From Bdellovibrionota bacterium (GTDB lineage Bacteria; Bdellovibrionota; Bdellovibrionia; Bdellovibrionales; JAMPXM01), in the NCBI GenBank assembly GCA_963170185.1, contig CAUJGS010000007.1, positions 1 to 37,820 on the forward strand: a DNA stretch of 37,820 bases. Reading direction: 5' to 3'. The notes below the pieces were generated by a model. That model saw only the letters and a list, made by a program, of their open reading frames with translations, did not search any database and was not told the origin of the DNA. Shown here piece by piece: positions 17,048 through 32,204 of this stretch (its first letter is position 1; each line of letters begins with the position of its first letter). The translations under genes were made by a program, and so were the position numbers.

Positions 17048-17707
17048 TTACTTGCTCTTGCCTGCGCCCTTGGCGGCTGGCGCGGGGGCGGGGATATCAA
17101 ACGTCACGACTTTGTAGATCACGTCAAAGTAGCTACCGGGATTGGTTCCGGGTTTTACTTCGAAGCCGACGATTTTAGTTGAGGTGCCGAGATTGCTGAG
17201 GCCGTGGCCGATATCGACAATCTGAGTGAGGTTGAGATTCGCCAGGCGAACTTCGACGCCATTTTGCCGAATCTCTTTCGGGATGAAGCGGCTCGCGCGA
17301 GCGCCGGCGTTGTCGTAAAATGAAATGGCCTTGATCTGCTCGGGCTGCACGCGGGCTCCCATCACGGCACTTCGCGCACGTGACTCAAGCATGGCGTTGT
17401 CCATGGCGGGGGTGGCGGGCGGAGCTGACGCGGATTTTCGTTTAACACGATAGAGATCTAAAACGAGATCGCGGTTTTCTTCAAAAAGTGCGAGGTTCTC
17501 GCTGGCGCGAGAGTAGTAGGCCATCGGGACTTGGAACAGGACATAGCCGACGAGGAAAATCGTGAGCGCCAGAACGGCTTTTTGACCGACCGGGGGGAGA
17601 AGCTCGTAACGTTCGCGAACTTTTTGATAAAGTTCCGACTCGTCGAGCTGGCTCTTGGCTCCCTGGAGCGATTCAAAAATCTTTTCGCGAATCTCGTCAA
17701 AGGCCAC
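17048..17707 (-). CDS. gspM: Type II secretion system protein M
   Basis: GspM is a platform protein of the inner membrane that binds GspL. The 219-residue product has a cytosolic N terminus (about 1-42, with an acidic heptad-like run) and a single membrane span (about 43-62, AVLALTIFLVGYVLFQVPM). A periplasmic coiled stretch (ENLALFEENRDLVLDLYRVKRK) and a ferredoxin-like domain follow, with a Pro/Ala-rich Lys tail. That topology and its place between gspL and gspN support the call. The N-terminal cytosolic segment is longer than the very short one of E. coli- or Vibrio-type GspM. Primary-sequence conservation in the family is low. Confidence 0.85.
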   Translation of the reverse strand: MAFDEIREKIFESLQGAKSQLDESELYQKVRERYELLPPVGQKAVLALTIFLVGYVLFQVPMAYYSRASENLALFEENRDLVLDLYRVKRKSASAPPATPAMDNAMLESRARSAVMGARVQPEQIKAISFYDNAGARASRFIPKEIRQNGVEVRLANLNLTQIVDIGHGLSNLGTSTKIVGFEVKPGTNPGSYFDVIYKVVTFDIPAPAPAAKGAGKSK

Positions 17708-17746
17708 TGCTTGATCCTTCGCCGGGGCCCAACCCGGCTTTGCTGG

Positions 17747-19456
17747 TTAGTTCTCCGGTTTGCGATCGATTTTCATATTGAAGGCAAAAGGCTGTCCTGG
17801 CGCACCGGCGCGCAGATGCGAAGGTGTTCCTTTTTTGACTGTGCCTTTGCGTGCAATACTTTGAAGTTCTTTTTCCACGGCGGCGGCGAGATCGGGCCCA
17901 AGCACACGTCCTTCGATGATGAGATCGTCATTGTCGAGTGCGATGTGATCGACTTCAAGGCCTCGGCCTTCACGCGGGGGAAGTTGAACTGGGAACTTTT
18001 CCGCCATGCGCACGACAAAGTCCATTGCCGAGGCGTATTCGTCGAGCTGAGCCAGGGTTTCGCGGTTTTTGATCGCGCGTGTTTCCGTGGTGATGTAGCG
18101 CTGAATGCCGTCTGGCGTAGCTGAAGATCCGCGAAGGCCCGCAACTTGTTGTGCTGCTTTCGTGAGAAGCGCATCGGACTCGTCGACGAGGCTGAGTGAG
18201 GAGTTTTCTCGCATCACCGAATAGACGGAGAAAACCAAGAAGATCGCGAGTGCCACCTGCATTGTCGTGCCCCAGGTGTCCCAGAGCAGCTTGAGGTTTT
18301 CATTGCGCTGAATGAACGGGCCCTTAAGAAGATTGATAGCCGGGTTTCTTGTCTTACGGTGCCCTTCGAGCGCTAGTCCAATAGCCGTGGCGCCGGAGTT
18401 TTCGATTTCCGGCGATTGCTGCAAGCGAAGTTGCACCCGTCCCGAAGACTGTAGCGCGCTGAAGTAGTTTAAGGAGTTCGCGCTGACTTCGATGGCCTGG
18501 GTGAGCCATGCGCCGAAGTTCTGAATTTGCGAAGCGCCGCCCGTTAGACGGAGGCTTTGGATGTCAGCACCCGCGGACGTTCTCAGATCCAAGATCGTGG
18601 TCTTTAGCTCTCGTAAAAGTGGGGTCGCGGATTCCGCAATGGCTTTGTGCATGGCCATTTGGTCGCGCGAGACGCCATCTGTGTTGAGAAGCACAAAGCT
18701 CTTTGTTTGGAGAACCTTGATCGCCTCGATATAGGGGATTTTGAAAGTGGTCTCGATCGCGAGCACGACATCGTGCCCACCCCAGGGGATCGAGCGCGTG
18801 GCAACGACGATGCCTTCGCGGAAAACGATGAGATTGGCTTGAGTGTGACCGATCTGCAAAATCGCTTGGGCCGCTTGGACGTCTTGCGCACGAGATGCGT
18901 CTTCGCCAAGTGCGACCTGCTTCGGAGAAGCGGGTGGTGCTTCCCACCAGCGGTCGAGCACGTTGGAAAGAGCCAGGCCTTCGGCCGCTACGATATGAGC
19001 TTCAAAGCCGCCGTCTTTTGCTTGTTGCAAAGCTTTTTCGATGGGGCCGTGCGGGCTTGCGACGGCAAGAACATCCGAGCCGTTGCCAAAAACTTCGACC
19101 ACGCGGGCATCGAAAATGGTTTCGCTTGGATCAAAGGGGATGTCTTCTTCGAGTTCAAAGGGAAGACTCTTAAGGATCTTCGCTCGGTCGGAGAATGGAA
19201 AACGTCTTAGACGAGAGGAGATGGACTTTTGTGGAACGCCGATGATCCAACGCACATCGCTTTGTCTTGAAACGCTTGCGAGATATTGGCTAGAGAACGA
19301 GCGTAGCTTTTCGATGATTTCAACGGTTTGATCTCGGCCTGGATCCGTTGAAAGCGGCATCTCCCAAACGTTGGTGACGACAACGCTTCTTCGGGAACTT
19401 TCTGCTTCTGCGATCTTGATGCTGCTGCTGCCGATGTCGACGCCGAGACACTTCAT
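17747..19456 (-). CDS. gspL: Type II secretion system protein L (PilM-like actin fold plus PilN-like domain)
   Basis: GspL links the cytoplasmic ATPase GspE to the inner-membrane platform. The 569-residue protein begins MKCLGVDIGSSSIKIAEAES, a phosphate-1 loop of the actin/PilM fold. The cytosolic domain runs to about residue 385, one membrane helix lies at about 393-412 (TMQVALAIFLVFSVYSVM), and a periplasmic domain of about 155 residues follows. It is longer than the classical GspL (about 400 residues) and reads as a complete PilM-like domain joined to a PilN/GspL-like periplasmic domain. The intact DIGSSSIK loop suggests that nucleotide binding may be kept, unlike in some GspL proteins. 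It lies 20 bases after gspK. Confidence 0.9.
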   Translation of the reverse strand: MKCLGVDIGSSSIKIAEAESSRRSVVVTNVWEMPLSTDPGRDQTVEIIEKLRSFSSQYLASVSRQSDVRWIIGVPQKSISSRLRRFPFSDRAKILKSLPFELEEDIPFDPSETIFDARVVEVFGNGSDVLAVASPHGPIEKALQQAKDGGFEAHIVAAEGLALSNVLDRWWEAPPASPKQVALGEDASRAQDVQAAQAILQIGHTQANLIVFREGIVVATRSIPWGGHDVVLAIETTFKIPYIEAIKVLQTKSFVLLNTDGVSRDQMAMHKAIAESATPLLRELKTTILDLRTSAGADIQSLRLTGGASQIQNFGAWLTQAIEVSANSLNYFSALQSSGRVQLRLQQSPEIENSGATAIGLALEGHRKTRNPAINLLKGPFIQRNENLKLLWDTWGTTMQVALAIFLVFSVYSVMRENSSLSLVDESDALLTKAAQQVAGLRGSSATPDGIQRYITTETRAIKNRETLAQLDEYASAMDFVVRMAEKFPVQLPPREGRGLEVDHIALDNDDLIIEGRVLGPDLAAAVEKELQSIARKGTVKKGTPSHLRAGAPGQPFAFNMKIDRKPEN

Positions 19457-19476
19457 GTCGTTAGTCTAACCGCAGG

Positions 19477-20838
19477 TTATTGCTCGTTCCAATAGACAAT
19501 CTTTGGTCGACGTAGAGGGGCCGGGGCTGGACTTTGATCCTTTGTTGCACCCGTTCCGTCTTTTTTGCCGGAATCTCCAGAACCACCGCCGGAACCACCG
19601 CTTCCAGAACCTGAACCACTGGCTCCAGAATCCGCTCCAGATGTGCCTTTCGTGGCTTGTTCGACCAGGGCTTTTTCCAGGCGCGAGCGAACCTTGTCGG
19701 CATCGTAAACGATTGCGACGATGTCGCTCTGTGCTTGGCCAGCTTTTCCGGTCGCACGGATGCGGAACATGGTTTCTGGCTCAAAGACCAGGGGGACTTT
19801 GGCGCCATCGCCAAGGTCAAACGGGTTTCCACCAATGCCGATGGAACTTAGGTATTGCACGAAGTCGTCTTCGTCTTTAAACGGACCACGTTTTGGATCT
19901 TGTCGATCCGCAAGGATGCGATCGATTCGCTCGTCGGTGAAGGCCGTACCCATGGCTTTGAAGACTTCCTTGCCGGCCTGATTCACGTTGATCCCTTTCC
20001 CGCCATAGAGGGTGACAGCCGGGATGATGAGGTCATAGAGCGTGTCGGTCATGCCGGCGACCATGTGAAGCTCGCCAAGTGTTCGCAGCGGTTGATTGGT
20101 CGGAAGAAAATCTGATCGCGGGCGCTGATTATAGAGCTGTTTTTCCGAACCGCCGTTTCGGCTTTCGTCGTCGGGATCAATCCAGTCTGCGATGTTGTTT
20201 AAAACTTCCTGGAAGTTGAAACCTCGAAATTTGGAAGCGAAGTCTTCGTCATTTTCCATTTTGTGCTGAAAGAGCTGCAAGAGCTGTCGATTGGCCGCTT
20301 CGGCCATGATCTTCGAGGGCGAACCGAGGTCGTTGATGTCAACCTTGGCGCCCTCGGCTTCGATCGTCGTGAAGTAACTGACCTTCAAAGTGGTGAGGTC
20401 GCTGGCACTGACAGCTTTTTTGATTTCGTCGCCATCAACCATCGAAATGCCTGGTGGAATCGGTGGCGGCCACAAAAATGGCTGGCGCCAGATTTCGTCG
20501 AGAATGCGAGGGTCGGGAAGTTTGTCGGCGCCAAGCGCCAGTGCCTGACGATAGATGTGGATTCGAAGCAGGCTCATCTCAACACCAGCGCGCGAGGCCC
20601 AGTACGCGCGAACCTGATTCACCGATTGTGATGAGACGACGTACTCGACACTGGTTTCAAACATCACTTCGGTTGCGATCACCAAGAGCAAAGTCGTTGC
20701 CGAGAGCGCCAAAATTAGCGCCGCCCCTTTTTCAGACCGAAGGCCAGAGCGGCCGAAGCGACGTAGAGAGATCGTTTCGCGCTTCTGCGCGAAAAGCAGC
20801 GCAGGCCAACGGCCGAAGCGACGTAGTAGCCCTTTCAT
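19477..20838 (-). CDS. gspK: Type II secretion system minor pseudopilin K
   Basis: GspK caps the pseudopilus tip with GspI and GspJ. The 453-residue product has a prepilin-type helix (AALILALSATTLLLVIATEV, from about residue 39) after a Gly, with no Glu at position 5, as is usual for GspK. It continues through the large alpha-helical domain (DINDLGS, NIADWIDPDDESRNGGSE, LRTLGELHMVAGM, ININ-type helix-hairpin-helix VNQAGKEVFKAMG). The leader before the cleavage site is about 38 residues, unusually long, and holds a duplicated LRRFGR phrase from a 60-bp in-frame insert. A Gly/Ser-rich tail (about 395-435) precedes a short conserved-looking end (PKIVYWNEQ). The start ATG overlaps the gspJ stop by four bases. 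Confidence 0.93.
   Translation of the reverse strand: MKGLLRRFGRWPALLFAQKRETISLRRFGRSGLRSEKGAALILALSATTLLLVIATEVMFETSVEYVVSSQSVNQVRAYWASRAGVEMSLLRIHIYRQALALGADKLPDPRILDEIWRQPFLWPPPIPPGISMVDGDEIKKAVSASDLTTLKVSYFTTIEAEGAKVDINDLGSPSKIMAEAANRQLLQLFQHKMENDEDFASKFRGFNFQEVLNNIADWIDPDDESRNGGSEKQLYNQRPRSDFLPTNQPLRTLGELHMVAGMTDTLYDLIIPAVTLYGGKGINVNQAGKEVFKAMGTAFTDERIDRILADRQDPKRGPFKDEDDFVQYLSSIGIGGNPFDLGDGAKVPLVFEPETMFRIRATGKAGQAQSDIVAIVYDADKVRSRLEKALVEQATKGTSGADSGASGSGSGSGGSGGGSGDSGKKDGTGATKDQSPAPAPLRRPKIVYWNEQ
20751..20826. repeat. 16-bp direct repeats flanking a hairpin inside gspK
   Basis: GGCCGAAGCGACGTAG occurs at 20751-20766 and again at 20811-20826, exactly 60 bases apart, so the spacing is in frame (20 codons). 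Between the copies lies a perfect eight-pair hairpin, TTTCGCGC - TTCT - GCGCGAAA (20775-20794). The whole block encodes the extended, basic leader of GspK. It looks like a small in-frame palindromic insertion with a target duplication, or a local duplication. Confidence 0.8.
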
Positions 20839-21797
20839 TGCTGTCGCCCTCCGCTTTGACCGCCGGCTGGTGTCGGGCTTGCCTGAGCTTCTTTGTCGGA
20901 TTCATCCGGGTTGTTGGAGTTTCTAATCGGCGCAAGCCAGGTGAGGGATTGTGGCTTGGAGTTTTTGTCTTCCTTGTTGTGAAGCGTGAGCGAGATTTCG
21001 ACGGCGTCCGGGAAATTGCCACGTGTGACAGCATCCGTGCTTTCCGCGCGAGAGTCCCAGGATTCCGTGAAGTCGCTCATGCCGGCGGCGATGTAGCGAA
21101 GTTTGAATTCCGTCACGAAAGGAACCAAGACTTGAGTTTGCACATCGTCTTCGCTAGCGGCCCCGAGGGGAAAGTCATTGCTGGGTTCCACACGCTCGGT
21201 GCGATTGAGGCATGTTGAGAGATATTTGTTGTTTTCGCCAGAGCGACAGCTGCCGAGGTAGTAGAAGATGGTGGCTTGATCGCTTTCCGGTGCATCGACA
21301 TAGCGGCGGATATGGTTTCGCGTGGTGAAGGTCATTTGTTGGGAGTTTCCGACAAAAGCCGTGAGCTGAGCGGGGGTCGGCATCGGCGTCGCGGACGCAA
21401 GCGGGTCTGGCGCTACCTGAGGAGTGGCTGACGGCGAAGGTGCGCCTGTCGGAGGTGTCGCTGTCGGTGACGAGCCTGGTTGTTTTTGTTCGGCCGCTTT
21501 TTTCTTTCGAAGCTCCAGCACTTTATTGTAGGACGCGATCGTGTAGTCGCGGTGGTGAAATGCGGCGCCGACGTCTGATGCAAGAAGTCTCATCGCGTCT
21601 CTTAGGCGAGACTCTTCGGCAATTTGTCGCTGCACTTTTTGGCGGCTTTGAAGGCCTGAGCGAACACTTTGCGCCATCAAAACACTGAGCCCTGCAAGGA
21701 TCAAAAGTGCGACCATGATTTCAATGAGCGTGAAGCCGCGTTGGCTGTAAAACGCGGCGATGCTTACAGGACGTGATGACGAGAGAGCCTTTTTCAT
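20835..21797 (-). CDS. gspJ: Type II secretion system minor pseudopilin J
   Basis: This 320-residue protein has the prepilin cleavage motif SQRG-FTLIEIMVALLILAG with Glu5, followed by the usual start of the pseudopilin helix (MAQSVRSGLQSRQKVQRQIA). The mature part matches GspJ by length class and by its position between gspI and gspK. Two low-complexity stretches are inserted: a Pro/Ser/Thr/Ala-rich one at about 112-145 (PTATPPTGAPSPSATP) and a tail ASPTPAGGQSGG. The leader of about 20 residues is moderately long. Both the start and the stop overlap neighbouring genes by four bases (ATGA), implying tight translational coupling. Confidence 0.92.
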   Translation of the reverse strand: MKKALSSSRPVSIAAFYSQRGFTLIEIMVALLILAGLSVLMAQSVRSGLQSRQKVQRQIAEESRLRDAMRLLASDVGAAFHHRDYTIASYNKVLELRKKKAAEQKQPGSSPTATPPTGAPSPSATPQVAPDPLASATPMPTPAQLTAFVGNSQQMTFTTRNHIRRYVDAPESDQATIFYYLGSCRSGENNKYLSTCLNRTERVEPSNDFPLGAASEDDVQTQVLVPFVTEFKLRYIAAGMSDFTESWDSRAESTDAVTRGNFPDAVEISLTLHNKEDKNSKPQSLTWLAPIRNSNNPDESDKEAQASPTPAGGQSGGRQQ

Positions 21798-22357
21798 TGG
21801 GCGCTCCCGCTACCACCGGTGGCACCGCCAGCGGCACCGAGGCCGGGGACGTTGACCGGTTTCGTGTAGTCGACAAAGTAGGTGGCAACGGATTGCTGCA
21901 TCTCTTTGGCTTTGGCGCGTTTGCTCTTAAAGTAGACGGTAACAGTCACTTCTTTGACGGAGGTTTTAACGTATTCGGTCACGGTGCGCGCGATCAGGGC
22001 TAGCATCTCGGCTTGCGAGCTGTCGGTATTGTTTCCGCCAAGTGCGGAGGTGAGGTTTGGCATTTCAAATTCTTTTGAGCGCATCTCCCAACGGTAGCCG
22101 GGAAACTCCTCGGTGAATTCGCCGCTGTCTTCTTCTTTGATCTCGTTGAGTGGCTTTCCACGGTAGAGCAGATCGAGTTCCGTCATCTTGCGTTCGAGGA
22201 GTGCTGCCATATTCGCGTTCACGCGCGCTTTTTCGATGCGCATGAGGTTGCTGCTCCAAGAGCTGCCGATCACGATGAGGCCGCCTGTCATGATCATCAC
22301 GGCCACGAGGGTTTCCATGAGCGTGAATCCAAGCTGGGAGGAGCGCGAGATTCTCAT
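21794..22357 (-). CDS. gspI: Type II secretion system minor pseudopilin I
   Basis: The 187-residue product has a short leader and the cleavage motif QLG-FTLMETLVAVMIMTGG with Glu5. The helix continues into NMAALLERKMTELDLLYRG, a typical GspI phrase. GspI initiates the pseudopilus tip with J and K. The tail ends in a Gly/Ala/Ser-rich run (GAAGGATGGSGSAQ) that is likely disordered. ATGA overlaps occur with gspH upstream and gspJ downstream. Confidence 0.93.
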   Translation of the reverse strand: MRISRSSQLGFTLMETLVAVMIMTGGLIVIGSSWSSNLMRIEKARVNANMAALLERKMTELDLLYRGKPLNEIKEEDSGEFTEEFPGYRWEMRSKEFEMPNLTSALGGNNTDSSQAEMLALIARTVTEYVKTSVKEVTVTVYFKSKRAKAKEMQQSVATYFVDYTKPVNVPGLGAAGGATGGSGSAQ

Positions 22358-22977
22358 TTCGCTTTAAGCTCCTTCAGCGTCACCGAGCGATTGAAGATTT
22401 CAGCGGCGCCGGTGAGGGGATGGATCACGATGGACCAGTGCTGATTTTTCCGGTCGCCGAGTTTGATAACGGCTTCATCGGAAAGGCCTTGCGGGAAGAA
22501 GTGAACGTAGGCGCGGCCTTCGGTAAATTCTTTTGAGCGTCCGTTGATTTCAACACCCTCGATGAGCAGGCCACCATTGAGGGCGACCTCTTTGTGTTTC
22601 TGATCTTTCTCAAACTTTGATCGCCCTTTGAGAGCTTCTTCGCGCTGAATTTCGGTGAGTTTCTCGAGTTCCTCTTGTTGCTCTTCGGAGAGTTGCAAGG
22701 CCTGGCCGGCGGCACTTTCGATCCAATACCGATGGCCCTTTTCGTCGTTCATATCAAACACGATTCGAAACGTTGCGTTCTGCAGACGTGCGGAGGTGCG
22801 AAGTTCTTTGGTCTGGATCGCAAGCTTTCGAACCTGGCTGCGACGATTCTCATTGGGATTAAAGAGGCGTGTGCCACCAACGGCGAGTACGCCCGCGACG
22901 ATGAGAATCACGACCATGATCTCAATCAATGTAAAGCCGGCTTGGTTGGCTCTTGGGCCTATGAGCATCCGTGCCAT
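22354..22977 (-). CDS. gspH: Type II secretion system minor pseudopilin H
   Basis: I placed the start at ATG 22977 (MARMLIGPRANQAG-FTLIEIMVVIL). An in-frame extension to 23241 would overlap gspG and has a non-prepilin character. ATG 22968 is also possible, and neither has a strong Shine-Dalgarno sequence. The 207-residue protein has Glu5 after the cleavage site and a class III prepilin helix. An unusual charged, probably coiled-coil stretch (about 105-142, rich in Glu, Gln and Lys) precedes the beta-rich C-terminal part (HFFPQGLSDEAVIKLGD resembles GspH). It is separated from gspG by an 89-base gap containing a hairpin. Confidence 0.88.
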   Translation of the reverse strand: MARMLIGPRANQAGFTLIEIMVVILIVAGVLAVGGTRLFNPNENRRSQVRKLAIQTKELRTSARLQNATFRIVFDMNDEKGHRYWIESAAGQALQLSEEQQEELEKLTEIQREEALKGRSKFEKDQKHKEVALNGGLLIEGVEINGRSKEFTEGRAYVHFFPQGLSDEAVIKLGDRKNQHWSIVIHPLTGAAEIFNRSVTLKELKAK

Positions 22978-23032
22978 TCGTCTAGAGAATAACACGGCAA
23001 GCGGTGGGGGGAAGCTGTAAGTTGGCAAAACA

Positions 23033-23059
23033 GCTCCCCGCGCCGGATGCCTGGGGAGC
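23033..23059 (-). terminator. Hairpin between gspG and gspH (possible attenuator)
   Basis: On the minus strand GCTCCCC (23059-23053) and GGGGAGC (23039-23033) form a perfect seven-pair stem with a 13-base loop, followed by TGTTTTG. The T-run is too short for a strong terminator. It could reduce read-through into gspH or protect the 3' end of a gspG message, making the major pseudopilin more abundant than the minor ones. Confidence 0.45.
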
Positions 23060-23066
23060 GAAGTCG

Positions 23067-23546
23067 TTAGTTCGCGTCTTTGCTGGAAAGATCTTTTGCT
23101 GTACCGCCGCCGCCAGCTTTGCGATCCGAGCCAAGCGAACGCAGCTCGAAGTCTGTACCATCGGATTCGTAAATCAGTGCGCGCTGCCAAGCATCCTTGG
23201 GCATTTGCTTGAGGTAGGGATTTGGTCCCCAGTTGGCACACACGTCCTTGCCGGGGTCTTCCATCAGAACTTGGAGGCCTTGATCGGTGGTCGGGAAACC
23301 GCCGCAGTCGGCGTTGTACATCTCAAGCTGTTTGGAAACCTCTTGGAATTGCGCGCGCGTGGTTTTGACGTTGGCGTTGCCAAGGTTGTCGAAAACCGAT
23401 CGTCCAAGGACAGCCGCCAAACCACCAATGATAACGATGACGACCATGATCTCGATGAGAGTGAGACCCTTTTGGTTCTTAAGCAGCTGAGGACGGAAGG
23501 TCGATGTTTTTGAAGTTTCAGAGGTTGGGCTCGTCATTAGGTTCAT
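23067..23546 (-). CDS. gspG: Type II secretion system major pseudopilin G
   Basis: GspG polymerises into the pseudopilus. The 159-residue precursor has a leader of about 27 residues and the cleavage motif QKG-LTLIEIMVVIVIIGG with Glu5. The hallmark GGFPTTDQGLQVLMEDP follows, and then YLKQMPKDAW, both diagnostic of GspG. Two Cys (in DCGGFP and DVCANW) flank this region and could form a disulfide. The leader is longer than usual and lacks basic residues at its beginning; ATG 23537 is an alternative start. A Gly-rich tail (AGGGGTAKDLSS) ends the protein. Upstream lie a good promoter candidate and direct repeats, and downstream a hairpin. These suggest extra expression relative to the rest of the operon. 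Confidence 0.97.
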   Translation of the reverse strand: MNLMTSPTSETSKTSTFRPQLLKNQKGLTLIEIMVVIVIIGGLAAVLGRSVFDNLGNANVKTTRAQFQEVSKQLEMYNADCGGFPTTDQGLQVLMEDPGKDVCANWGPNPYLKQMPKDAWQRALIYESDGTDFELRSLGSDRKAGGGGTAKDLSSKDAN

Positions 23547-23583
23547 GGCTTCTTAGGATCCTTTCCGAAAAACGTGCTTACCG

Positions 23584-23612
23584 AGTTTACTGGCGGATGG
23601 CGAATATCTCAA
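23584..23612 (-). promoter_or_regulatory. Candidate internal promoter for gspG
   Basis: On the minus strand TTGAGA (23612-23607, five of six to the -35 consensus) and TAAACT (23589-23584, four of six to the -10) are 17 bases apart, the optimal spacing. Transcription would begin near 23577, giving a leader of about 30 bases before the gspG ATG. It lies in the 117-base gap between gspF and gspG, the largest gap inside the operon. It is a pattern match only. Confidence 0.5.
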
Positions 23613-23631
23613 TCACTAGGGTGCTGACTGC

Positions 23632-23657
23632 TTGCGTTAAGTAAGGTATTGCGTTAA
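23632..23657 (-). repeat. Two 9-bp direct repeats upstream of the gspG promoter candidate
   Basis: TTGCGTTAA occurs at 23632-23640 and 23649-23657 (TTAACGCAA on the minus strand), 17 bases apart. The pair lies just upstream of the candidate gspG promoter, about -55 to -80 relative to the likely start. The spacing and position would suit a tandem activator-binding site. The copies are exact, in non-coding sequence between the gspF stop and gspG. Confidence 0.6.
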
Positions 23658-23663
23658 TCGCGC

Positions 23664-24884
23664 CTACATGCCACCGAGTTGAGACATTTGGAAAATCGGG
23701 ACCATGATCGAGAAGACAATGCCTCCAATCAAGACACCCATGACGACGATCAGAAGGGGGCCGAGAGCCGAAGTGAGCCCTTGGATCTCGGTATCGACCT
23801 GGAAATCGAAGCTCGTGCTAACTTGTCCGAGCATCTGTTCGAGTTCGCCGGTTTTTTCCCCGATGTTGATCATGTGAATCACAATCGGTGGAAACTGGCT
23901 GGAGCGTTTCAGCGGAGCCGCGATGGATTCCCCTTCGCGAATATTGTTTCGGGCTTCGTCAATTGCTTCGGCGATCATGGCGTTGCCGACGACGTTGCGA
24001 ACGATGTCCATCGCTTGCAACATGGGAACGCCGCCGGCAAGCAATGTCGAGAGCGTGCGAGCAAAACGGCTAACAGCGATCATTCGCGACAATCGGCCAA
24101 CAAGAGGAAGCTGAAGAATGATTTGGTCCCAGCGTCTTGAACCGGCGGGTGTGCGTTTCCAGTTGAGGAAGAGAAGGTAAATTGCGAACGCGGCGCCGGC
24201 GATGATGTACCACCATTCGACGAAAAAGCCGCTGGCGGAAATCACAAGCTCTGTGTACCAAGGAAGTTCCATCTCCGCGCTCTCGAAAATCGCCGTCATT
24301 TTTGGAACGACGAAGATGAAGATCACGGAGAGCATGCCCAAGAGAAAGATAGTCATGATGATCGGGTAGAGAATCGCCGAGCGAACTTTTGCCATCAGGG
24401 CGTTTTGCGCCTCGGTGAATTCCGCTAGGCGAATCAAGATGATGTCTAACGTGCCGGTCGCTTCGCCCGCTTCGCACATCGTGAGGTAGATGTTGTTAAA
24501 GACATTGGGGTACTTCGACATCGCTTTGTGCAGGGTCGACCCCTCGTTGACCTGGTTTTTAACATCGGAAACCGTGTCGCGGAGAGTGGGGTTTTCCATC
24601 TGCTCGGCGACGGCAATGAGACTGTCGACAAGCGGGATATTGGCTTTCAAAAGTGTCGCGAGCTGCCTTGTGAGATTGGCGAGGTCTTGAATCGACACTT
24701 TTCCGCCGCTAGCTCTTGAGCCTCGAGCTTTGGCGGCCTGAAGTTTGGATTTGTCGACGATATCGGTGACATAGATACCGTCTTTTTTGAGCTTAGCTCG
24801 CGCCGTTTTGACGTTGTCGGCATCGATCGTGTTTTTGACCGATTTTCCCGCTTTGGTTAAGCCTTTGTACTCAAAAACTGGCAT
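23664..24884 (-). CDS. gspF: Type II secretion system inner-membrane protein F
   Basis: GspF is the multi-pass inner-membrane protein at the centre of the platform. It contacts GspE and GspL. The 406-residue protein begins MPVFEYKGLTKAGKSVKNTI and carries two T2SSF domains. Each has the family phrases: LTRQLATLLKANIPLVDSL then MCEAGEATGTLDIIL, and FARTLSTLLAGGVPMLQAM then MINIGEKTGELEQML. Three membrane segments are visible (near 170-190, 215-235 and 375-400). Length and domain order are normal. It lies 52 bases after gspE, followed by the 117-base gap before gspG. Confidence 0.97.
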   Translation of the reverse strand: MPVFEYKGLTKAGKSVKNTIDADNVKTARAKLKKDGIYVTDIVDKSKLQAAKARGSRASGGKVSIQDLANLTRQLATLLKANIPLVDSLIAVAEQMENPTLRDTVSDVKNQVNEGSTLHKAMSKYPNVFNNIYLTMCEAGEATGTLDIILIRLAEFTEAQNALMAKVRSAILYPIIMTIFLLGMLSVIFIFVVPKMTAIFESAEMELPWYTELVISASGFFVEWWYIIAGAAFAIYLLFLNWKRTPAGSRRWDQIILQLPLVGRLSRMIAVSRFARTLSTLLAGGVPMLQAMDIVRNVVGNAMIAEAIDEARNNIREGESIAAPLKRSSQFPPIVIHMINIGEKTGELEQMLGQVSTSFDFQVDTEIQGLTSALGPLLIVVMGVLIGGIVFSIMVPIFQMSQLGGM

Positions 24885-24936
24885 TGCGATATCTTTGCAA
24901 TGCTTTTAAGCGAGCGCAAGCCGATATGCGATCGAC

Positions 24937-26628
24937 CTAAAGGTCAATTTGCGTATTTGAGAGAACTTCTTCGACGGTTGTGATGCCTTTAAGAACCTTC
25001 TCGATGCCATGGTCGCGGAAGGTCTTCATGCCTAACTCAATGGCCTTCTTTTTAATCGCGCCGCCATCACGCCGCTGCATGATCATCGAACGAATCTCGT
25101 CCGTGACCAGCAAAAGCTCTTGGATATTGGTTCGGCCTAAGTAGCCTTTGCCGTTACATTGATCGCAGCCGATAGCCTTGTACATGGTGGCGCCGCGAAC
25201 TTGCTCGCGTGTGAGACCAAGGCTTGCGAGATCCACATCGGTGGCGACATGGGGCTGTTTGCAGTGTGGGCACAAGATACGCACCAGGCGCTGCGAGATC
25301 ACGCCCTGGATGGAGGTGGCGATGAGGAATGGTTCGCAGCCGAAATCGATGAGGCGCGGGAAGGCGCCGGCGGCATCGTTTGTGTGCAGGGTAGAGAACA
25401 CCAAGTGACCGGTGAGCGAGGCTTGCACGGCAAGTTCCGCTGTTTCCAAGTCGCGAATCTCACCCACCATGATCACGTCGGGATCCTGACGAAGAAAGCT
25501 TCTCAAGCCCGCGGCGAAGGTGAGTCCGATCTTGGAGTTCACCTGAACCTGGCCGATGCCGTGGATTCGTTGTTCCACCGGGTCTTCGACGGTGAGGATG
25601 TTCAATTCCGAGTTATTGATCCGAGACAGACACGCATAAAGTGTTGTCGACTTACCAGAGCCGGTAGGTCCGGTGACGAGCATGATGCCGTACGAGCGCT
25701 TTAAAAGATCCTCACGAAGGGCATCGAGGCTGGATTCGCTAAATCCCAGCTGTTCGAGCTGCAATACGACGTTGGATCGGTCTTGTAGACGCATGACGAT
25801 GCGTTCGCCAAATGCCGTAGGCACCGTGGAGAGACGAACGTCGATGTCTTTTCCGCCAAGCTTTAGTGGGATCCGGCCGTCTTGTGGAAGGCGCTTTTCG
25901 GCGATGTTCAAATTCGCCATGACCTTGATACGAGACGTGATGGAATTTTGCAGTTTCTTTGCGGGCTTAAATATATCAAACAAGACACCGTCGATCCGAA
26001 ACCGAACGGCCATGTCGCGTTCGTAGGGCTCGATGTGGATATCACTGGCTTTTTCTTTAACTGCGCGGAAAAGCAGGGTGTTGACGAGCTTAATCACCGG
26101 AGCGTCGTCGTCTCCCGCTTCCAAGAGATCGATAATTTGGTCATCGAAGTCGAGGTCGTCGTCTTCGATGCCATCTAGTCCGCCAAGGCCAGCTGTGCTC
26201 TTTTCATAGACTTTGTTGATCGCATCTAAGATGCGCGTTTTTGAAGTCATGACGGGCACGATGCGCTTATTAAAGATCACGCGGAGGTCGTCTAGGATGC
26301 GCGTGTTCAGTGGGTTCGTGACGAGGACCTGCACAGAGTAGCCGTCTTCCTTTAAGGGAAGGGCTTCGTGTTTTTTTGCAAACCCGATGGCGATATCACG
26401 CACGAGATCGGCGTTGATATCGTTGACCGGGATGTCTTTTAGATAGGCGATACCAAGCTGCGCGGCGAGATCCCCTAGGATTTCATCCGGAGTCATGCCG
26501 TCTTTGCGCGTAAGCAGATCTCGCATCGGCGTACCTGTCGCCGATGTCTGATTGAGAAGCAGTTCGACCTGCTCCTCGGTAAGGCTCGTGTTCTTAATCA
26601 GAACGCTGTCGATTTGGACCGCAGCCAT
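24937..26628 (-). CDS. gspE: Type II secretion ATPase E
   Basis: GspE is the hexameric cytoplasmic ATPase that drives pseudopilus assembly. The 563-residue protein has an N-terminal GspE/PilB N1-like domain, then the AAA-type core with Walker A GPTGSGKST (about 316-324), the Asp box, Walker B in DPDVIMVGEIRDLETAE, and the His box STLHTNDA. The C-terminal zinc domain has two CxxC pairs (CPHC near 454 and CDQC near 490), as in classical GspE. No residue appears missing. It starts 21 bases after the gspD stop and precedes gspF, the canonical order. Confidence 0.98.
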   Translation of the reverse strand: MAAVQIDSVLIKNTSLTEEQVELLLNQTSATGTPMRDLLTRKDGMTPDEILGDLAAQLGIAYLKDIPVNDINADLVRDIAIGFAKKHEALPLKEDGYSVQVLVTNPLNTRILDDLRVIFNKRIVPVMTSKTRILDAINKVYEKSTAGLGGLDGIEDDDLDFDDQIIDLLEAGDDDAPVIKLVNTLLFRAVKEKASDIHIEPYERDMAVRFRIDGVLFDIFKPAKKLQNSITSRIKVMANLNIAEKRLPQDGRIPLKLGGKDIDVRLSTVPTAFGERIVMRLQDRSNVVLQLEQLGFSESSLDALREDLLKRSYGIMLVTGPTGSGKSTTLYACLSRINNSELNILTVEDPVEQRIHGIGQVQVNSKIGLTFAAGLRSFLRQDPDVIMVGEIRDLETAELAVQASLTGHLVFSTLHTNDAAGAFPRLIDFGCEPFLIATSIQGVISQRLVRILCPHCKQPHVATDVDLASLGLTREQVRGATMYKAIGCDQCNGKGYLGRTNIQELLLVTDEIRSMIMQRRDGGAIKKKAIELGMKTFRDHGIEKVLKGITTVEEVLSNTQIDL

Positions 26629-26649
26629 TATGCCTCTCTACTTTAAGTC

Positions 26650-29160
26650 TTACCTAGTGGCGTTGACCGGTTCGTTGCTATTGATCTTCTTCGAGCGCGG
26701 CTCTCCGCGTTTTGTCGTACGGGGGAGAGAGTCCATCTTCGCACCGTGCGGATCGCGACCGTCGAAGTTTCTCTTGATCCAGTCGACGCGTTCGTTCACT
26801 TTTTCGCTGGTGAGCTTCTGGCTCTCGCGAACGCCGCGGATGATGCGCGGAGTGATGAAGACGACGAGGTTGATTTTCTTCTTCGTGCGGCTGCGTGACT
26901 TAAAGAGCCAGCCGACGACGGGGACGTCGCCAAGAACTGGGATCTTGGTTTCATCAACGCCTTCTTCGTCGCGGATCAAACCGCCAAGCACCGCCGTATC
27001 GCCAGAATTGACGACGATATTGGTTTTGATCGTGCGATCCGAGATCGTCGTTGCGACGTTCTTAAGCGCGTCTGCAACACCGGCGTTTGGGTTCACCTGG
27101 CGAACACTCTGCGCAAGCTTCAAGCGCACGACATCCGAGTCTGGGCGAATGTAAGGTGTCAGCTCAAGTTTGATCGTCGCAGGCTCAAATTGCGTCGTCG
27201 AAGTCGTACCAGCTGCCGTGCTTGTCGAGTTCGTCGCGACAGGGACCTTGTCGCCGACTTCGATCACGGCTTCCTCGTTGTCGAGCGCCATGATGCGTGG
27301 AGTGGAGAGGATGTTTGATTCGATATTGCTCTGTAGGAACTTAATGAACGCCAAGAGCGAAGGAATTCGCACGGTTTGAGAAGTTCCAGGGAGCGTGAAA
27401 TCAAACGAAGCACCGCTTCCGAAGCCCAAGACAGCGCCGCTGTCGGTGCCAGGGTTCATGATGCTGGTGAGACTTCCTTGCGAACCGAAGCCGGCCCGGC
27501 CGACACCTTTTGAGCTTGGATCGAGGTAGTAATAAGTCGGATTCCACGACCGTGTTTTGTTGGCGTTCATCTCCATGATGATCGTTTCAACAAAGACTTG
27601 ATCGCGAGGAATGTCGATCTTCGCCAAAAGCGAACGCACGGTTTCGTAGTCTTGCTTGGAAGCCGTGATCACAAGCGAATTCGTGTTTTTGTCGGCATTG
27701 ATCTTCACGTCGCCGCCAAAGATGTTTTGGCGATCGAGCGGGGAGGCCATGCGATTTGCTCCGCCGCCAAACGCCGAGTTGCCGACTCCACCAAGGGGGC
27801 TTGCCGCGCCACTTGAGGACGCCGACGAGCCAGAGGCGAGGCCGCCAATGGTTTGTGCGATCTTTTCTGCTTCGCCGTAGCGAACATAGTACACAAAAAC
27901 GCCGCCGGCTTCCGCTGGGTCGAGTTTGTAGTCGAGTTTGCGAACAAGATCGCGAACCTTTTCGATTCCCGCGCGGTTTCCGACCACGATCAGCGCATTG
28001 GTGCGGTCGTCTGGAGCAACAAGCGAGAGTTCCTCTGGTGTGCCGCCGGCCGCCGTGCCGCCACGTGAACGGAAACGCGGAACGTTGGCGCCAAATGCCG
28101 GCTGAGCCGCGCCTGCGCCACGGGGGTCTTTGCTGATGATTTGGTTGATGAGATCAGCAAGGTCTTTTGATTTCGCGTAGCGAATTGGAATCACTGAAAG
28201 CTGTTCTTCAAAGCCAGGGCGATCGAGTTCCTTGATGATCTTCATCATGCGCTCGACGTTGGCGCCGTAATCGGTGATCAGAAGCGAGTTTGTAGGCTCA
28301 TAAGGTGTCATCTCGCCGTCTTTAGAAGGAAGAACGCGAAGCCGCTTGTTTACTTCCTCGGCCGAGATGTGTTTGAGATGCACGATGCGAGTGATGTAGA
28401 TGTCGCTCGTTGGCGCATACTCACCGGTGTAGGTTTCAATCGAATCTCGCTGCGCGTTTCGTGAGGCTTTAACTTTTAAGAATTTGCCGTAAGGAACAAC
28501 CGTGAAACCGTTGATCGCAAGTGCGGCTAAAAACGCTTTATAAGCTTCGGCGACAGTGACTTTGCTCGGGGCAATGATCGAGATCTTGCCGCGAACGCCC
28601 GGGTCGATGATAAAGTTCTTTCCCGTGAGCTGGCCGATGGCTTTCACGACGTCGGTGATTTCCGCGTTCGGGAAGTTGGCTTCCACAAGATCCGGATAGT
28701 TTTCGTCGGTCATGTCCTCGATCTGTGCATCGGCGAGGGATGGTGCGCCTCGCGATTTGGTCTGCGACGGGCTTGTCGGTGTGGTTGGAAGCTGGCTTGG
28801 TCCGCTTGAGATCGAGCTTCCGCGTGAGCCGCCGTTTCCACTGCCGCGCGAGAAGCGGTCGTCATTGCCGTTTCCGCCAAAGTTTGGCTCGGATGGTCCG
28901 CTAGAAGTTGCCGCGCCAAAATCGGGTGGAGTCGCAGGCGGTGCCGGTGGAGCGTCGCTGAAGTTGCCAACCGACTCGTCGAGCTCTTCGTCGTCAAACA
29001 GGCGATCGATCTCTTCGTTACTTTGAGCAAACGCACGTGAAGGTGAGAGGAAGATCGCACTTGGCGGCAGGGCCATCGCAGAGAACGCAAAGTTCATTGC
29101 AATTGAAGAAATGATGGCTTTTCGCGCCGTCGATGGTTTTTTAGACTGTTTCATAGACAT
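26650..29160 (-). CDS. gspD: Type II secretion secretin D
   Basis: GspD forms the outer-membrane channel. The 836-residue precursor has a long positively charged signal peptide (first about 45 residues, with a cleavage region near AFAQ). Mature N0-N3 domains follow, beginning near VEANFPNAEITDVVKAIGQ. The C-terminal secretin domain contains VPVLGDVP-type sequence (KIPVLGDVPVVGWLFKS) and VVFITPRIIRG. Before N0 there is an added segment of about 110 residues that is acidic and Gly/Ser/Pro-rich (such as GNGNDDRFSRGSGNGG). Another Gly/Ser-rich insert (GSSASSSGAASPLGG) lies in N3. The protein ends soon after the secretin domain with a basic tail, without an obvious S-domain for a GspS pilotin. It follows gspC by 30 bases. 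Confidence 0.97.
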   Translation of the reverse strand: MSMKQSKKPSTARKAIISSIAMNFAFSAMALPPSAIFLSPSRAFAQSNEEIDRLFDDEELDESVGNFSDAPPAPPATPPDFGAATSSGPSEPNFGGNGNDDRFSRGSGNGGSRGSSISSGPSQLPTTPTSPSQTKSRGAPSLADAQIEDMTDENYPDLVEANFPNAEITDVVKAIGQLTGKNFIIDPGVRGKISIIAPSKVTVAEAYKAFLAALAINGFTVVPYGKFLKVKASRNAQRDSIETYTGEYAPTSDIYITRIVHLKHISAEEVNKRLRVLPSKDGEMTPYEPTNSLLITDYGANVERMMKIIKELDRPGFEEQLSVIPIRYAKSKDLADLINQIISKDPRGAGAAQPAFGANVPRFRSRGGTAAGGTPEELSLVAPDDRTNALIVVGNRAGIEKVRDLVRKLDYKLDPAEAGGVFVYYVRYGEAEKIAQTIGGLASGSSASSSGAASPLGGVGNSAFGGGANRMASPLDRQNIFGGDVKINADKNTNSLVITASKQDYETVRSLLAKIDIPRDQVFVETIIMEMNANKTRSWNPTYYYLDPSSKGVGRAGFGSQGSLTSIMNPGTDSGAVLGFGSGASFDFTLPGTSQTVRIPSLLAFIKFLQSNIESNILSTPRIMALDNEEAVIEVGDKVPVATNSTSTAAGTTSTTQFEPATIKLELTPYIRPDSDVVRLKLAQSVRQVNPNAGVADALKNVATTISDRTIKTNIVVNSGDTAVLGGLIRDEEGVDETKIPVLGDVPVVGWLFKSRSRTKKKINLVVFITPRIIRGVRESQKLTSEKVNERVDWIKRNFDGRDPHGAKMDSLPRTTKRGEPRSKKINSNEPVNATR

Positions 29161-29190: not shown

Positions 29191-30090
29191 TTATTCTGTG
29201 ATCGAGAAGTTCGACGATTCCTTTCGTCCGCCTCGCTCGAATCCTAGATTGATCGTTCCCGGGTCGTTCCGCAGCTTCTGGAAGATCTCCATGGCTTTTG
29301 CCGGTGAATCGATCTTTTCTCCGTTCACGCTCTCGATGCAATCGCCGCGGCGAACGCCGAGGGCTTCAAAGATACTGCCAGCCTGCATTTCCGCAATATT
29401 GAAGCACTCGATCAGGCCATTGGCACCGATGCGAGGAACCGCGCGGGCTTGTTGCAGAATCGAGGGGAGATCTTGGAGGTAGCGATTGAGATCATCGCGT
29501 CGAACCGAACGATCGTTTTCCGAAGTCGCGGTGATGCCAGGAGCGACAGCCGTTGCGGTGACGACGTTAAAGCCCACGGCTCCGCCCTCTTCTTGCATTT
29601 GCACGTACTCAAGGCGGCCGCTGGCATTGTTGCGAAAGATCATCTTCGAGCGTTCGATTTTCGTGACGGTGCCTAAGCCATCTGGAATCTCGCCATCGAC
29701 GCGAACGGCGACAACGTCGTTTTTGGAACGCAGATTGAGTGTCGCAACAGATCGGCCAGGGTTGGCGTGCACCAGGGTCCCAACCAAGGAAATGGCAAGC
29801 TGAGTGGGAACCGGGGCATCGTCTTGTTGTTTTGCAGGCGCCCCGCCCAGCGGATCTGGGATCTTCTGATCGCGCGCAAAGATATTGCGGCCGGTGATGA
29901 CCTGGAATTTCTCTTTACCAAAATAAGAGTTGCGAGAGGTATAGACGGGCGTCGCTGTCGGTGGATCGCCAGGCAGCATAAAGCCGCGATAATTCAGGAT
30001 TGTCAGGTCCGCTGCGGCAAAGCCGATTACCAACAAGAGGGCAATCACAGCAATTGACTCAAGACGTGGTCGCGGATTCTCGGAGTTCAT
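29191..30090 (-). CDS. gspC: Type II secretion system protein C
   Basis: GspC joins the inner-membrane platform to the secretin and helps select substrates. The 299-residue protein has one N-terminal membrane span (about 12-32, IAVIALLLVIGFAAADLTIL) and a homology-region domain. The homology region contains RNIFARDQKIPDP and AISLVGTLVHANPGRSVATL, typical of GspC. A C-terminal PDZ domain follows (from about residue 215, with GSIFEALGVRRGDCIESVNG), in the class that uses PDZ rather than a coiled coil. It is the first gene of the operon. AAGGGG lies upstream of the ATG at slightly long spacing. The promoter is probably in the 511-base gap before 30602. Confidence 0.95.
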   Translation of the reverse strand: MNSENPRPRLESIAVIALLLVIGFAAADLTILNYRGFMLPGDPPTATPVYTSRNSYFGKEKFQVITGRNIFARDQKIPDPLGGAPAKQQDDAPVPTQLAISLVGTLVHANPGRSVATLNLRSKNDVVAVRVDGEIPDGLGTVTKIERSKMIFRNNASGRLEYVQMQEEGGAVGFNVVTATAVAPGITATSENDRSVRRDDLNRYLQDLPSILQQARAVPRIGANGLIECFNIAEMQAGSIFEALGVRRGDCIESVNGEKIDSPAKAMEIFQKLRNDPGTINLGFERGGRKESSNFSITE

Positions 30091-30353
30091 TCTCGGTCGT
30101 GCCCCTTAAGCTGCTGAAACCCTTGGATGTTAAACTCTTGGATCAGCGTATCAGACAGTCGGCGAGTCGCGGCACTGGATTTCCGTCTGACCGGACCTTA
30201 AGTCGGGTGGCTACCCTTTCAATCGCCATTGAATTCCCTTCACGGCAAGTGTCGGGTTTCTGAACAGTCATGGTGATTGAGGGGGAGCCGGCCTCGGTCA
30301 AGGGTGTGGCAAATGGGGGTGGTGGTCGAGTCGGAAAATCCCGTTCTCGCCCC

Positions 30354-30381
30354 CGTATATTGCCGTTCGGCTTGCTGTCAG
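30354..30381 (-). promoter_or_regulatory. Candidate sigma-70-type promoter for the gsp operon
   Basis: On the minus strand CTGACA (30381-30376, five of six) is followed after 16 bases by TATACG (30359-30354, four of six). Transcription would start near 30347 and give a leader of about 255 bases before gspC. The long leader makes it less certain. No better-spaced site was seen closer to the gene. Confidence 0.35.
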
Positions 30382-30473
30382 TTTCCTTTTGTCCCTGTTT
30401 CAGAAGTGTTTCTGTTTCTTTTGAGGCCTGTTTTCGACGGTCTTTTGCGGCCGAGACTTCGAGCTCATCGGGT

Positions 30474-30489
30474 TGGCACGCAGGATGCT
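30474..30489 (+). promoter_or_regulatory. Near-consensus sigma-54 (RpoN) promoter
   Basis: TGGCACGCAGGATGCT matches the sigma-54 consensus TGGCACG-N4-TTGCW at all defined positions but one (A for the first T of TTGC). It has the exact GG-to-GC spacing. It is on the plus strand, with transcription expected near 30500, about 100 bases ahead of the gene at 30602. The match is much closer than chance resemblances elsewhere in the window, and its position in a divergent gap is right. Confidence 0.55.
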
Positions 30490-30601
30490 GAGCTTCTTGG
30501 TAAGTGACGTTTCTTGGCCCCGGGGTTGAAAAGTCGAAACTCCCAAAGGGGATCGACGGGCTGAGACGGCGAAAACGAAAATGATGGGAATAGGGGCGAA
30601 C

Positions 30602-31510
30602 ATGACAGTCGTTCATGCGGGATTTAAGTCGGTTTTCACACAGTCATCAGGCGCCGTGTTTGCGGGGCGAAACGGTCTGGACTTCTTGGAACTTCGGTTG
30701 GGTACGGTTCGCATTCCAGAAGTTTCGCTCCGCATACGCGAAGCCCAGCGCATTTTGGATGGGCAAGAGGTCAATCGCATCGATCTCTTGGGCGCGATCG
30801 TGGCGGACGACGATTCATTCTTTAGAAACATCAAATTAAAAAGTCTCTTATCTGCAATTGTTCAAGTAGGACTTTATGACCGTCTCTTGCGCTCGCAACG
30901 AGCACCAGAGGTTCTTCTTGGCGCGGCCAATGGTGATGCCGCCCTCATGGTCTGCGCAGGTCAAATGACGTTTGAGCAGATGGTGCTTCAGTCGCCAGCT
31001 CTTCAAACGCTTCAACCGCGCTTGGTCGCGGTTCCTGGTCAGGCGACGAGCGACTCTTCAGCTGCGACGGCATCGACGCCGACCGGTTCTGGGCTCTTGC
31101 CCGTTCCTGGAATGCAAGCGCCCTTGGCTCCGCTTCCGGCACTGGTTGCGGGGGACTCGCAGGCGGCTCAGGCGCCTCAGGCGCCTCAAGTAGGAGTTGA
31201 ACTTCCTTCTTTGACGGGTCTTAGTCTCACGGAGTTTCGTGCGTTCATGCGCAATGAAGACGGCACGTTTGCGGAGCTTGGTCAGCCGACGATGGATCTG
31301 AAGAAGCTGATTTCAGAGATCGTCGAGCACCAGAGTGTGCTTCGTTATATCAACATCGGGCCGGCGCAAACGATTCAGCCGCTCGAATACAGCCAGATTG
31401 CCGATGCGACGGGCGCTGATGAAGTCACGGTTATCGATTCGATCGATCTCGACCCAATGTTAAACTGGTTCTGGAAGCAAATGCGCCCAGTAGCTGGAAT
31501 CGCTCAGTAA
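30602..31510 (+). CDS. Acyltransferase-like protein lacking the catalytic motif (probable pseudoenzyme)
   Basis: I took ATG 30602, which has AGGGG five bases upstream, giving 302 residues; ATG 30581 is possible. Residues about 40-130 resemble malonyl-CoA acyltransferases (FabD type). There is a helix IPEVSLRIREAQRIL, a middle region LLSAIVQVGLYDRLL, and then PEVLLGAANGDAALMVCAGQ at 102-121. This aligns without gaps to the FabD nucleophile block (GHSLGE followed by AG). The catalytic His-Ser become Ala108-Ala109, so it should not be an enzyme. A Pro/Ala/Ser/Gln linker (about 138-195) leads to a C-terminal domain of about 105 residues with no family I recognise (LSLTEFRAFMRNEDGTFAELGQ). No signal peptide is seen. 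A sigma-54-like site lies upstream. Confidence 0.7.
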   Translation: MTVVHAGFKSVFTQSSGAVFAGRNGLDFLELRLGTVRIPEVSLRIREAQRILDGQEVNRIDLLGAIVADDDSFFRNIKLKSLLSAIVQVGLYDRLLRSQRAPEVLLGAANGDAALMVCAGQMTFEQMVLQSPALQTLQPRLVAVPGQATSDSSAATASTPTGSGLLPVPGMQAPLAPLPALVAGDSQAAQAPQAPQVGVELPSLTGLSLTEFRAFMRNEDGTFAELGQPTMDLKKLISEIVEHQSVLRYINIGPAQTIQPLEYSQIADATGADEVTVIDSIDLDPMLNWFWKQMRPVAGIAQ

Positions 31511-31536: not shown

Positions 31537-32184
31537 CTATTTCTTCTCGGGCATCCACAAAGGCTCGTCGCGGCTTTGCAGACGATTTAGGTGACGGGCC
31601 AAAACAAAAAAGTAGTCATTGAGTCGGTTCACTTGGGTGACGACTTTCCCTTGCCACTCTGTCGGCTGGTCTCCCGCGGACGCCACGATCGCACGCTCGG
31701 CACGACGTGCGACGGTCCGAGCCAGATGGGCGTAGGCGGCCGGTCTGGTCCCGCCTGGAAGTACAAAGTTTTTTAAGGGTTCGAGTGAGACCGACATGCG
31801 ATCCATGGCGGTTTCAAGCTGTGTGACATAATCGTCCTTTAGCGGCGGCAGCATGTCGCGAAATTTCTGATCAGAGGCCGAGCCGCTAGCGCCGGTTGCC
31901 AAGTGTGACCCCAAGACAAAAAGCTGGGCTTGAGCTTCGGAGAGCTCGGTTTTCACGCGGTCGACTTCCATGAGGCTTGAGCCCGACCAGATTTCGTTTT
32001 CGATCTCCGCGATCAAAACTCCTACCAAACTATTGAGTTCGTCGAGGGTGCCGTAGGCCTCAAGGCGAAGGTCGTCTTTGCCGACGCGTGCTCCGCCAAA
32101 GAGCGAAGTCGTGCCTTGGTCGCCTGTTCGCGTATAGACTTTGGGAGCGGACTTTGATTCGTTGGGTTTTGCAGAGTCTGTCAT
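31537..32184 (-). CDS. pduO: PduO-type cob(I)alamin adenosyltransferase
   Basis: This enzyme transfers the adenosyl group of ATP to cob(I)alamin to form adenosylcobalamin. I took ATG 32184 (215 residues). A TTG at 32202 would add a few residues but overlaps the region of the divergent gene's ribosome binding site. Family motifs are present in order: the ATP-binding YTRTGDQGTTSLFGG near the N terminus, EAYGTLDELNSLVG, FVLPGG, ARRAERAIV and VNRLNDYFFVLAR. These match the trimeric PduO/ACA family rather than CobA. The C-terminal residues are short. No cobalamin riboswitch is visible. The gene is head-to-head with the amidohydrolase gene, with 20 bases between the start codons. Confidence 0.95.
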   Translation of the reverse strand: MTDSAKPNESKSAPKVYTRTGDQGTTSLFGGARVGKDDLRLEAYGTLDELNSLVGVLIAEIENEIWSGSSLMEVDRVKTELSEAQAQLFVLGSHLATGASGSASDQKFRDMLPPLKDDYVTQLETAMDRMSVSLEPLKNFVLPGGTRPAAYAHLARTVARRAERAIVASAGDQPTEWQGKVVTQVNRLNDYFFVLARHLNRLQSRDEPLWMPEKK

Positions 32185-32204
32185 TACGAAACAGGGGGCC
32201 AAAG

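Follow-up and report, generated by a model that had tools for sequence, protein, structure and literature searches.

The window, the whole 37,820-nucleotide stretch of DNA analysed here, comes from a genome of 3.54 Mb in 136 contigs. At positions 30602 to 31510 of its forward strand lies an open reading frame of 302 amino acids, which ORF reading, homologue searches and a 34-row alignment lead us to describe as a short acyltransferase-like pseudoenzyme (hereafter the short protein); an in-frame ATG upstream, at 30581 instead of 30602, would give 309 amino acids. The N half (residues 17 to 135; 30650 to 31006, forward), delimited by hhalign alignment to a longer paralogue, corresponds to the N-terminal acyltransferase core and holds a RIPEV stretch, a QxGLxxR helix and the former nucleophile elbow. 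In sequence and alignment, that elbow reads G-A-A-N-G-D-A (residues 107 to 113; 30920 to 30940, forward), with Ala109 at the Ser position. A linker rich in Pro, Ala and Gln follows at about residues 136 to 203 (31007 to 31210, forward) and, judging from the distance between the elbow and a downstream GP loop, takes the place that the small subdomain and the His loop have in acyltransferases. The C half (residues 204 to 302; 31211 to 31507, forward), also delimited by hhalign, corresponds to the C-terminal acyltransferase core with its INIGP loop (Gly253-Pro254), and it carries at residues 280 to 291 (31439 to 31474, forward) the motif SIDLDPMLNWFW, which the 34-row alignment marks as family specific.

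The short gene lies next to the genes of a type II secretion system (T2SS). Its divergent neighbor is gspC, the first T2SS gene (29191 to 30090, reverse strand), recognized by a PDZ domain and by a T2SSC match below the cut-off; the rest of the run (17048 to 29160, reverse) comprises gspD, E, F, G, J-type and K-type genes, two genes with only the pseudopilin-type N-terminal methylation motif, and genes for a PilM/T2SSL-type protein and a 219-amino-acid protein without a Pfam match. On the other side lies a PduO-type cobalamin adenosyltransferase gene (31537 to 32202) on the reverse strand, opposite to the short gene. Scans for sigma-70 promoters and terminators around the short gene found nothing. 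Between gspC and the short gene, most of the intergenic DNA is taken up by a 157-amino-acid open reading frame on the reverse strand (30143 to 30616), which also runs into the start of the short gene; because clustering of the open reading frames of other loci yielded no homologue of it, it is probably not a gene.

The original prediction read the protein as a FabD-like acyltransferase whose nucleophile block (P-E-V-L-L-G-x-x-x-G-D followed by AG) aligns without gaps to FabD, with His-Ser replaced by Ala-Ala, and which is joined through a Pro/Ala/Gln linker to an unknown domain. The motif reads PEVLLG-AANGDAALMVC-AG, and when the elbow, PEVLLGAANGDAALMVCAG, is set against that of the genome's own FabD, GHSVGEYAALVHAG (locus L065), the ungapped correspondence and the change from His-Ser to Ala-Ala are both real: GAANG stands in the place of the nucleophile GHSxG. 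This FabD (G000:C33:40006-40737), flanked by genes that by eye resemble fabH and fabG, is the only PF00698 match in the genome at E values up to 1. The linker, too, is present. Taken by itself, the window protein says little more about its descent. It matches no Pfam family, and its NCBIfam matches are at chance level (arsC, E 0.12; rpoN, E 0.22), in keeping with the view that no described family fits it. BLASTP against its own FabD gives no significant match (best E, 2.8). A sequence search of the PDB at E values up to 10 returned eight matches; six of these, weak without exception and none better than E 0.47, are acyltransferase chains of the FAS/FabD kind, and interspersed with them are two unrelated chains (E 0.82 and 1). 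AlphaFold2 models built from 3-row alignments had a mean pLDDT of 34 for the whole protein and 49 for the N half alone, too poor for use, which leaves fold and surface to inference.

Given a protein without a Pfam match, without a significant direct match to FabD and without a usable structure, one could propose that the resemblance is due to chance and that there is no acyltransferase kinship. We give this proposal hardly any credence in view of significant links, in both sequence and profile searches, that run through the long paralogue and of controls that came out clean. With single-sequence evidence so weak in Pfam and BLASTP searches, it is the family that gives the case for homology its strength. 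By sequence, the window protein finds long paralogues such as that at G011:C594 (E 1.1e-10, residues 17 to 131), a place that itself matches PF00698 at 42.3 bits, above the cut-off of 32.7 bits. In hhalign comparisons, the short profile (34 rows) aligns with the long one (7 rows) over both halves at 99.9% (E 2.1e-30), and the long profile aligns with FabD (13 rows) at 99.6% (E 9.6e-24). With 9 long rows, the full-length comparison of short and long covers the N half only (99.7%, E 7.8e-27); compared separately with the long paralogue, the N half reaches 99.5% (E 7.3e-23), and the C half, against 9 long rows, reaches 95.7% (E 8.6e-9) over 38 columns. As controls, both halves compared with nine neighboring gene families gave at most 3.0%, and for the C half 50 column shuffles gave at most 2.1% and the reversed profile 0.3%.

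Compared directly with FabD (13 rows), the short profile yields nothing at full length, and its halves are not significant (C half, E 0.0046, 7.6%; N half, E 0.0056, 6.5%); the link to FabD therefore rests on the long paralogue. Among single members, the short protein of locus L009 matches PF00698 below the cut-off (E 4.1e-5, 23.7 bits), as does another homologue (12.0 bits). In a tree built from 119 columns of the N half and 45 rows (13 FabD, 9 long and 23 of the 34 short rows, with the small forms of family f9 excluded), the short proteins group in one clade (100/99), a split with support of 100/100 sets short plus long apart from FabD, and the long rows are not gathered in a single clade. 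Since this tree is unrooted, descent of the short form from a long-type ancestor is its simplest reading and not a demonstration. Based on these alignments, we conclude that the short protein is homologous to the FabD-type acyltransferase core by way of the long paralogue, as the original prediction of acyltransferase descent had it, and that, by sequence profile, the two parts of the alpha/beta core, the N half and the C half with its GP loop, are kept in the same order. The domain that the original prediction could not place thus turns out to be the C-terminal part of the same core, since it aligns to that core in the long paralogue, and we reject the idea of an unknown second domain.

What, then, has been lost? 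As described in the accessible text of PMC4207774, acyltransferases have a small subdomain inserted in an alpha/beta-hydrolase core and a catalytic His some 100 residues beyond GHSxG, and the small subdomain and His loop border the CoA/ACP substrate site. The distance from the elbow Gly to the GP loop has a median of 97 residues in the short form (range, 47 to 153; 34 rows), 182 in the long paralogue (9 rows) and 196 in FabD (9 of 13 rows, the pattern having missed 4). Set beside the layout given in that part of PMC4207774, this shortening identifies the missing stretch: judged by length alone, some 85 to 100 residues with the small (ferredoxin-like) subdomain and the catalytic His loop are missing from the short form. 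The linker columns in their place (residues 136 to 203) hold from 1 to 75 residues across the 34 rows, and 41 or more in only six (the window, L033, L034, L035, L031 and L032); a long Pro/Ala/Gln linker is therefore a trait of the closest relatives of the window protein.

The catalytic residues went as well, as the original prediction held. Position 108, where the His should precede the nucleophile, is His in none of the 34 rows (conservation rank, 172), and no column of the alignment has 12 or more His, so that no conserved His, such as that of the YASH-type motif of acyltransferases, is found. Position 109 ranks 135 of 224 in conservation and holds S in 11 rows, I in 7, A in 5, V in 5, K in 2, T in 2, and others, Y included. 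The Ala-Ala pair occurs in a single homologue of the 34 and must be dropped as a hallmark of the family. Could the Ser found in part of the family serve an enzyme that is still active, its catalytic site having been rebuilt? The 11 rows with Ser (9 from f1, the family of the window, plus L038 and L063) speak for it, but I, V, A, K, T, Y or other residues stand there in the remaining 23, a His is conserved nowhere, and the smallest members lack a recognizable elbow; we regard such an enzyme as very improbable. With no constraint on the nucleophile, no catalytic His and no small subdomain, both catalysis and a classical CoA/ACP site seem unlikely for the short protein.

Loss of the active site does not seem to have been followed by decay. 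In five pairs with relatives, pN/pS is 0.19 to 0.35 in the N half, 0.23 to 0.38 in the C half and 0.63 to 0.80 in the linker; pS is near saturation, which makes the values rough, and the contrast between halves and linker is consistent. Purifying selection acts on the N and C halves and far less on the linker. We therefore reject pseudogene decay, and the gene looks functional. Invariant in the 34 rows are R32, R37, P39, V41, G90, L91, R94, G253, D284, P285 and L287, and W289, F290 and W291 are kept in 32, 33 and 29 rows, respectively; the C-terminal motif (D/E)SI(D/E)xDPMLxWFW, specific to the family, is among its most conserved parts. The motif outlasts the elbow in family f9, where the open reading frame shrinks to about 157 to 193 amino acids (189 in L061, counted from the conserved Met; L098, L106 and L107 are longer by upstream extension only). 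The f9 members, the smallest of all, have no recognizable elbow (LRRINHRN in L096_3, for example), and DPxLxWFW is exact in 12 of the 14 f9 copies (L061, L096 to L107 and L112, the exceptions being L105 and L112). Based on their conservation, we suggest that the RIPEV/QxGLxxR and DPMLxWFW patches may be surfaces of protein-protein contact.

The binding or regulatory role proposed originally is plausible. One form of it would be a sensor of acyl-CoA or acyl-ACP, a dead acyltransferase still able to bind the ligand of its ancestors and to signal the fatty-acid status of the cell. Descent from acyltransferases favors this form, and several pseudoenzymes do retain ligand binding. Against it, elbow residues vary freely, the smallest homologues have no recognizable elbow, and the missing stretch with the small subdomain and His loop is one that, in the portion of PMC4207774 available, borders the substrate site of acyltransferases, which weakens the case for acyl-CoA or ACP binding. 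We consider a sensor of this kind improbable.

Searching with the window protein found relatives in 46 of 59 genomes, its own included, some of them the long paralogue; the 34-row profile found matches in 54 of the 59. In a sample of the phylum, 85 of 290 genomes match, 78 from the order of the window genome and 7 from outside it. The short type, judged by the length of the open frame and by reading of the ORF where the locus was fetched, is found in 77 of the 96 sampled genomes of the order; genome G202 has a long-type match only, and 18 others have no match. Outside the order, the three matches that were read (G110, G092 and G162, of the 7) are all the long paralogue. A scan of viral contigs found no relative (four pattern stretches, none confirmed).

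The long paralogue, of about 315 amino acids (e.g., L052:5735-6682), retains both catalytic residues, Ser and His, in all 9 rows, with the motifs GCSLGD (once GVSLGD and once GCSMGD) and P[AVL]HS, and 3 of the 3 copies scanned match PF00698 above the cut-off. In L052 (5735-8013), L053, L055, L056, L113, L114 and L115, the paralogue, its Ser-His dyad to all appearances intact, adjoins a gene for a protein that we call c13; this two-gene unit recurs in several families of the phylum, and no gspC was seen in these seven loci. The one c13 protein scanned, that of L052, has weak matches to DUF455 and rubrerythrin, below the cut-off. At L049:6475-7428 (genome G016), the short gene has a tandem neighbor, an open reading frame of 317 amino acids with an N half related to both the short and the long form (97.7% to the long), an unmatched remainder and a degenerate elbow (MPQGDSF). 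This frame is possibly an intermediate or a duplicate.

The position of the short gene is conserved along with its sequence. In 66 of the 77 genomes, it and gspC point away from each other at a distance of no more than 2 kb, and a median of 224 bp separates the matched stretches (range, 159 to 1,485); among the other 11, it lies on a different contig from gspC in 6, and in 5 it is within 5 kb in another arrangement or farther away. Across the 43 short-gene loci, which vary in length and in 42 of which the short gene itself was scored (one was hidden by ORF choice), gspC is found in 33, the PduO-type gene in 27, an FGase gene in 24 and a gene that we call c7 in 23, so that gspC is the most constant neighbor, though also the nearest. 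Two side observations belong to these loci. The c7 protein (L038:4948-6063, with homologues elsewhere) is conserved, has about 370 amino acids and is encoded between the short and the cobalamin adenosyltransferase genes; the copy scanned has no Pfam match at 1e-3, and its PDB matches are at chance level, among them a chain of the aminoglycoside acetyltransferase type (AAC3-I, E 0.91). In one f9 genome (L096:6575-8065), a methyl-accepting chemotaxis protein gene (PF00015, E 3e-50) directly follows the short gene.

Does this position identify a partner? The same remodelled core could bind a partner elsewhere in the cell, its T2SS neighborhood being inherited gene order. The block gspC / short gene / c7 / PduO-type / FGase / ResB / CcsA recurs across the order, as inherited gene order would have it, and 11 of the 77 genomes depart from the divergent arrangement within 2 kb. 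Further, in 20 stretches upstream of gspC (1.8 to 5.8 kb, from 17 of the 18 order genomes without a match, from G202 and from two genomes of the class), the short profile matches no open reading frame at E 0.1 or better (best, 0.11), and c7 and the PduO-type gene are each present in 8 of the 20; the short gene can thus be missing from a block that is otherwise kept in part. A gspC-type match occurs in 276 of the 290 phylum genomes, and so, across most of the phylum and in 19 of the 96 genomes of the order, this T2SS gene is present where the short protein is not. The short protein matches no Gsp family: the window protein has no Pfam match, and hhalign to gspC, D and E profiles gives at most 3.0%. 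Set against inherited order are the divergent arrangement, kept at so short a distance in 66 genomes, and the constancy of gspC as neighbor. We regard a partner outside the T2SS as a minor possibility, yet one that deserves weight.

In total, these observations are consistent with a model, to which we assign a probability of about 0.6, in which the short protein is a non-catalytic, remodelled acyltransferase core that would act as a cytoplasmic protein-binding module, perhaps for the T2SS. We posit that an ancestor close to the long paralogue lost the small subdomain together with the catalytic His loop, that a linker then came to connect the N-terminal and C-terminal parts of the alpha/beta core, and that the nucleophile Ser was freed to vary. 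The core and the N-terminal RIPEV/QxGLxxR surface would have been retained, and the C-terminal (D/E)SI(D/E)xDPMLxWFW motif would be new. In this model, the short protein would now bind other proteins in the cytoplasm and would dock most probably through its DPMLxWFW end; both this role and the order of events are what we infer. Its conserved place divergent from gspC leads us to favor as partners inner-membrane or cytoplasmic parts of the T2SS, or T2SS expression, a link that gene position, and gene position only, suggests. We speculate further, and with considerable doubt, that a FabD-type enzyme without its lid subdomain and dyad may have been recruited once, early in the order, whose bacteria are of the predatory type, to serve the T2SS specifically as its adaptor or regulator in the cytoplasm.

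How does such a protein compare with what is known? Two features link it, by way of the long paralogue, to FabD (PF00698), and their order is unchanged: an N-terminal core that extends to the elbow and a C-terminal helix-strand-GP loop. FabD, however, has the catalytic Ser, the His before it, the His loop and the stretch of the small subdomain, all of which the short form lacks, and the short form has the additional DPMLxWFW motif. The long paralogue is its closest relative in sequence, with a similar N terminus, where LPEV replaces RIPEV, and a similar VxRFVNIGP loop, but it keeps Ser, His and full length, whereas the short form is shortened and has no dyad. Pseudoenzymes in general have lost catalytic residues while their sequence is still under selection; unlike them, the short form has also shed the stretch of an inserted subdomain. 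A literature search on acyltransferase pseudoenzymes found no such case, none of the matches listed being by title about a pseudoenzyme, and the available part of PMC4207774, on acyltransferase subdomains, describes no protein like the short form. The short gene goes unmentioned among the matches listed on the T2SS, GspC and acyltransferases of Bdellovibrio and Bdellovibrionota, in a body of literature that mostly excludes subscription journals, and in the text available of PMC8067016, and the open portion of a Bdellovibrio transposon paper (PMC12034629) holds nothing on it.

Selection thus appears to maintain an acyltransferase core that has neither small subdomain nor catalytic dyad. A stepwise series from enzyme to binding protein may be represented by FabD, by the long paralogue, by the short form and, at about 157 to 193 amino acids, by the minimal forms. 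It seems that in Bdellovibrio-type bacteria an enzyme of the fatty-acid-synthesis type has turned into a smaller, conserved, non-catalytic protein, usually encoded beside the genes of the T2SS.
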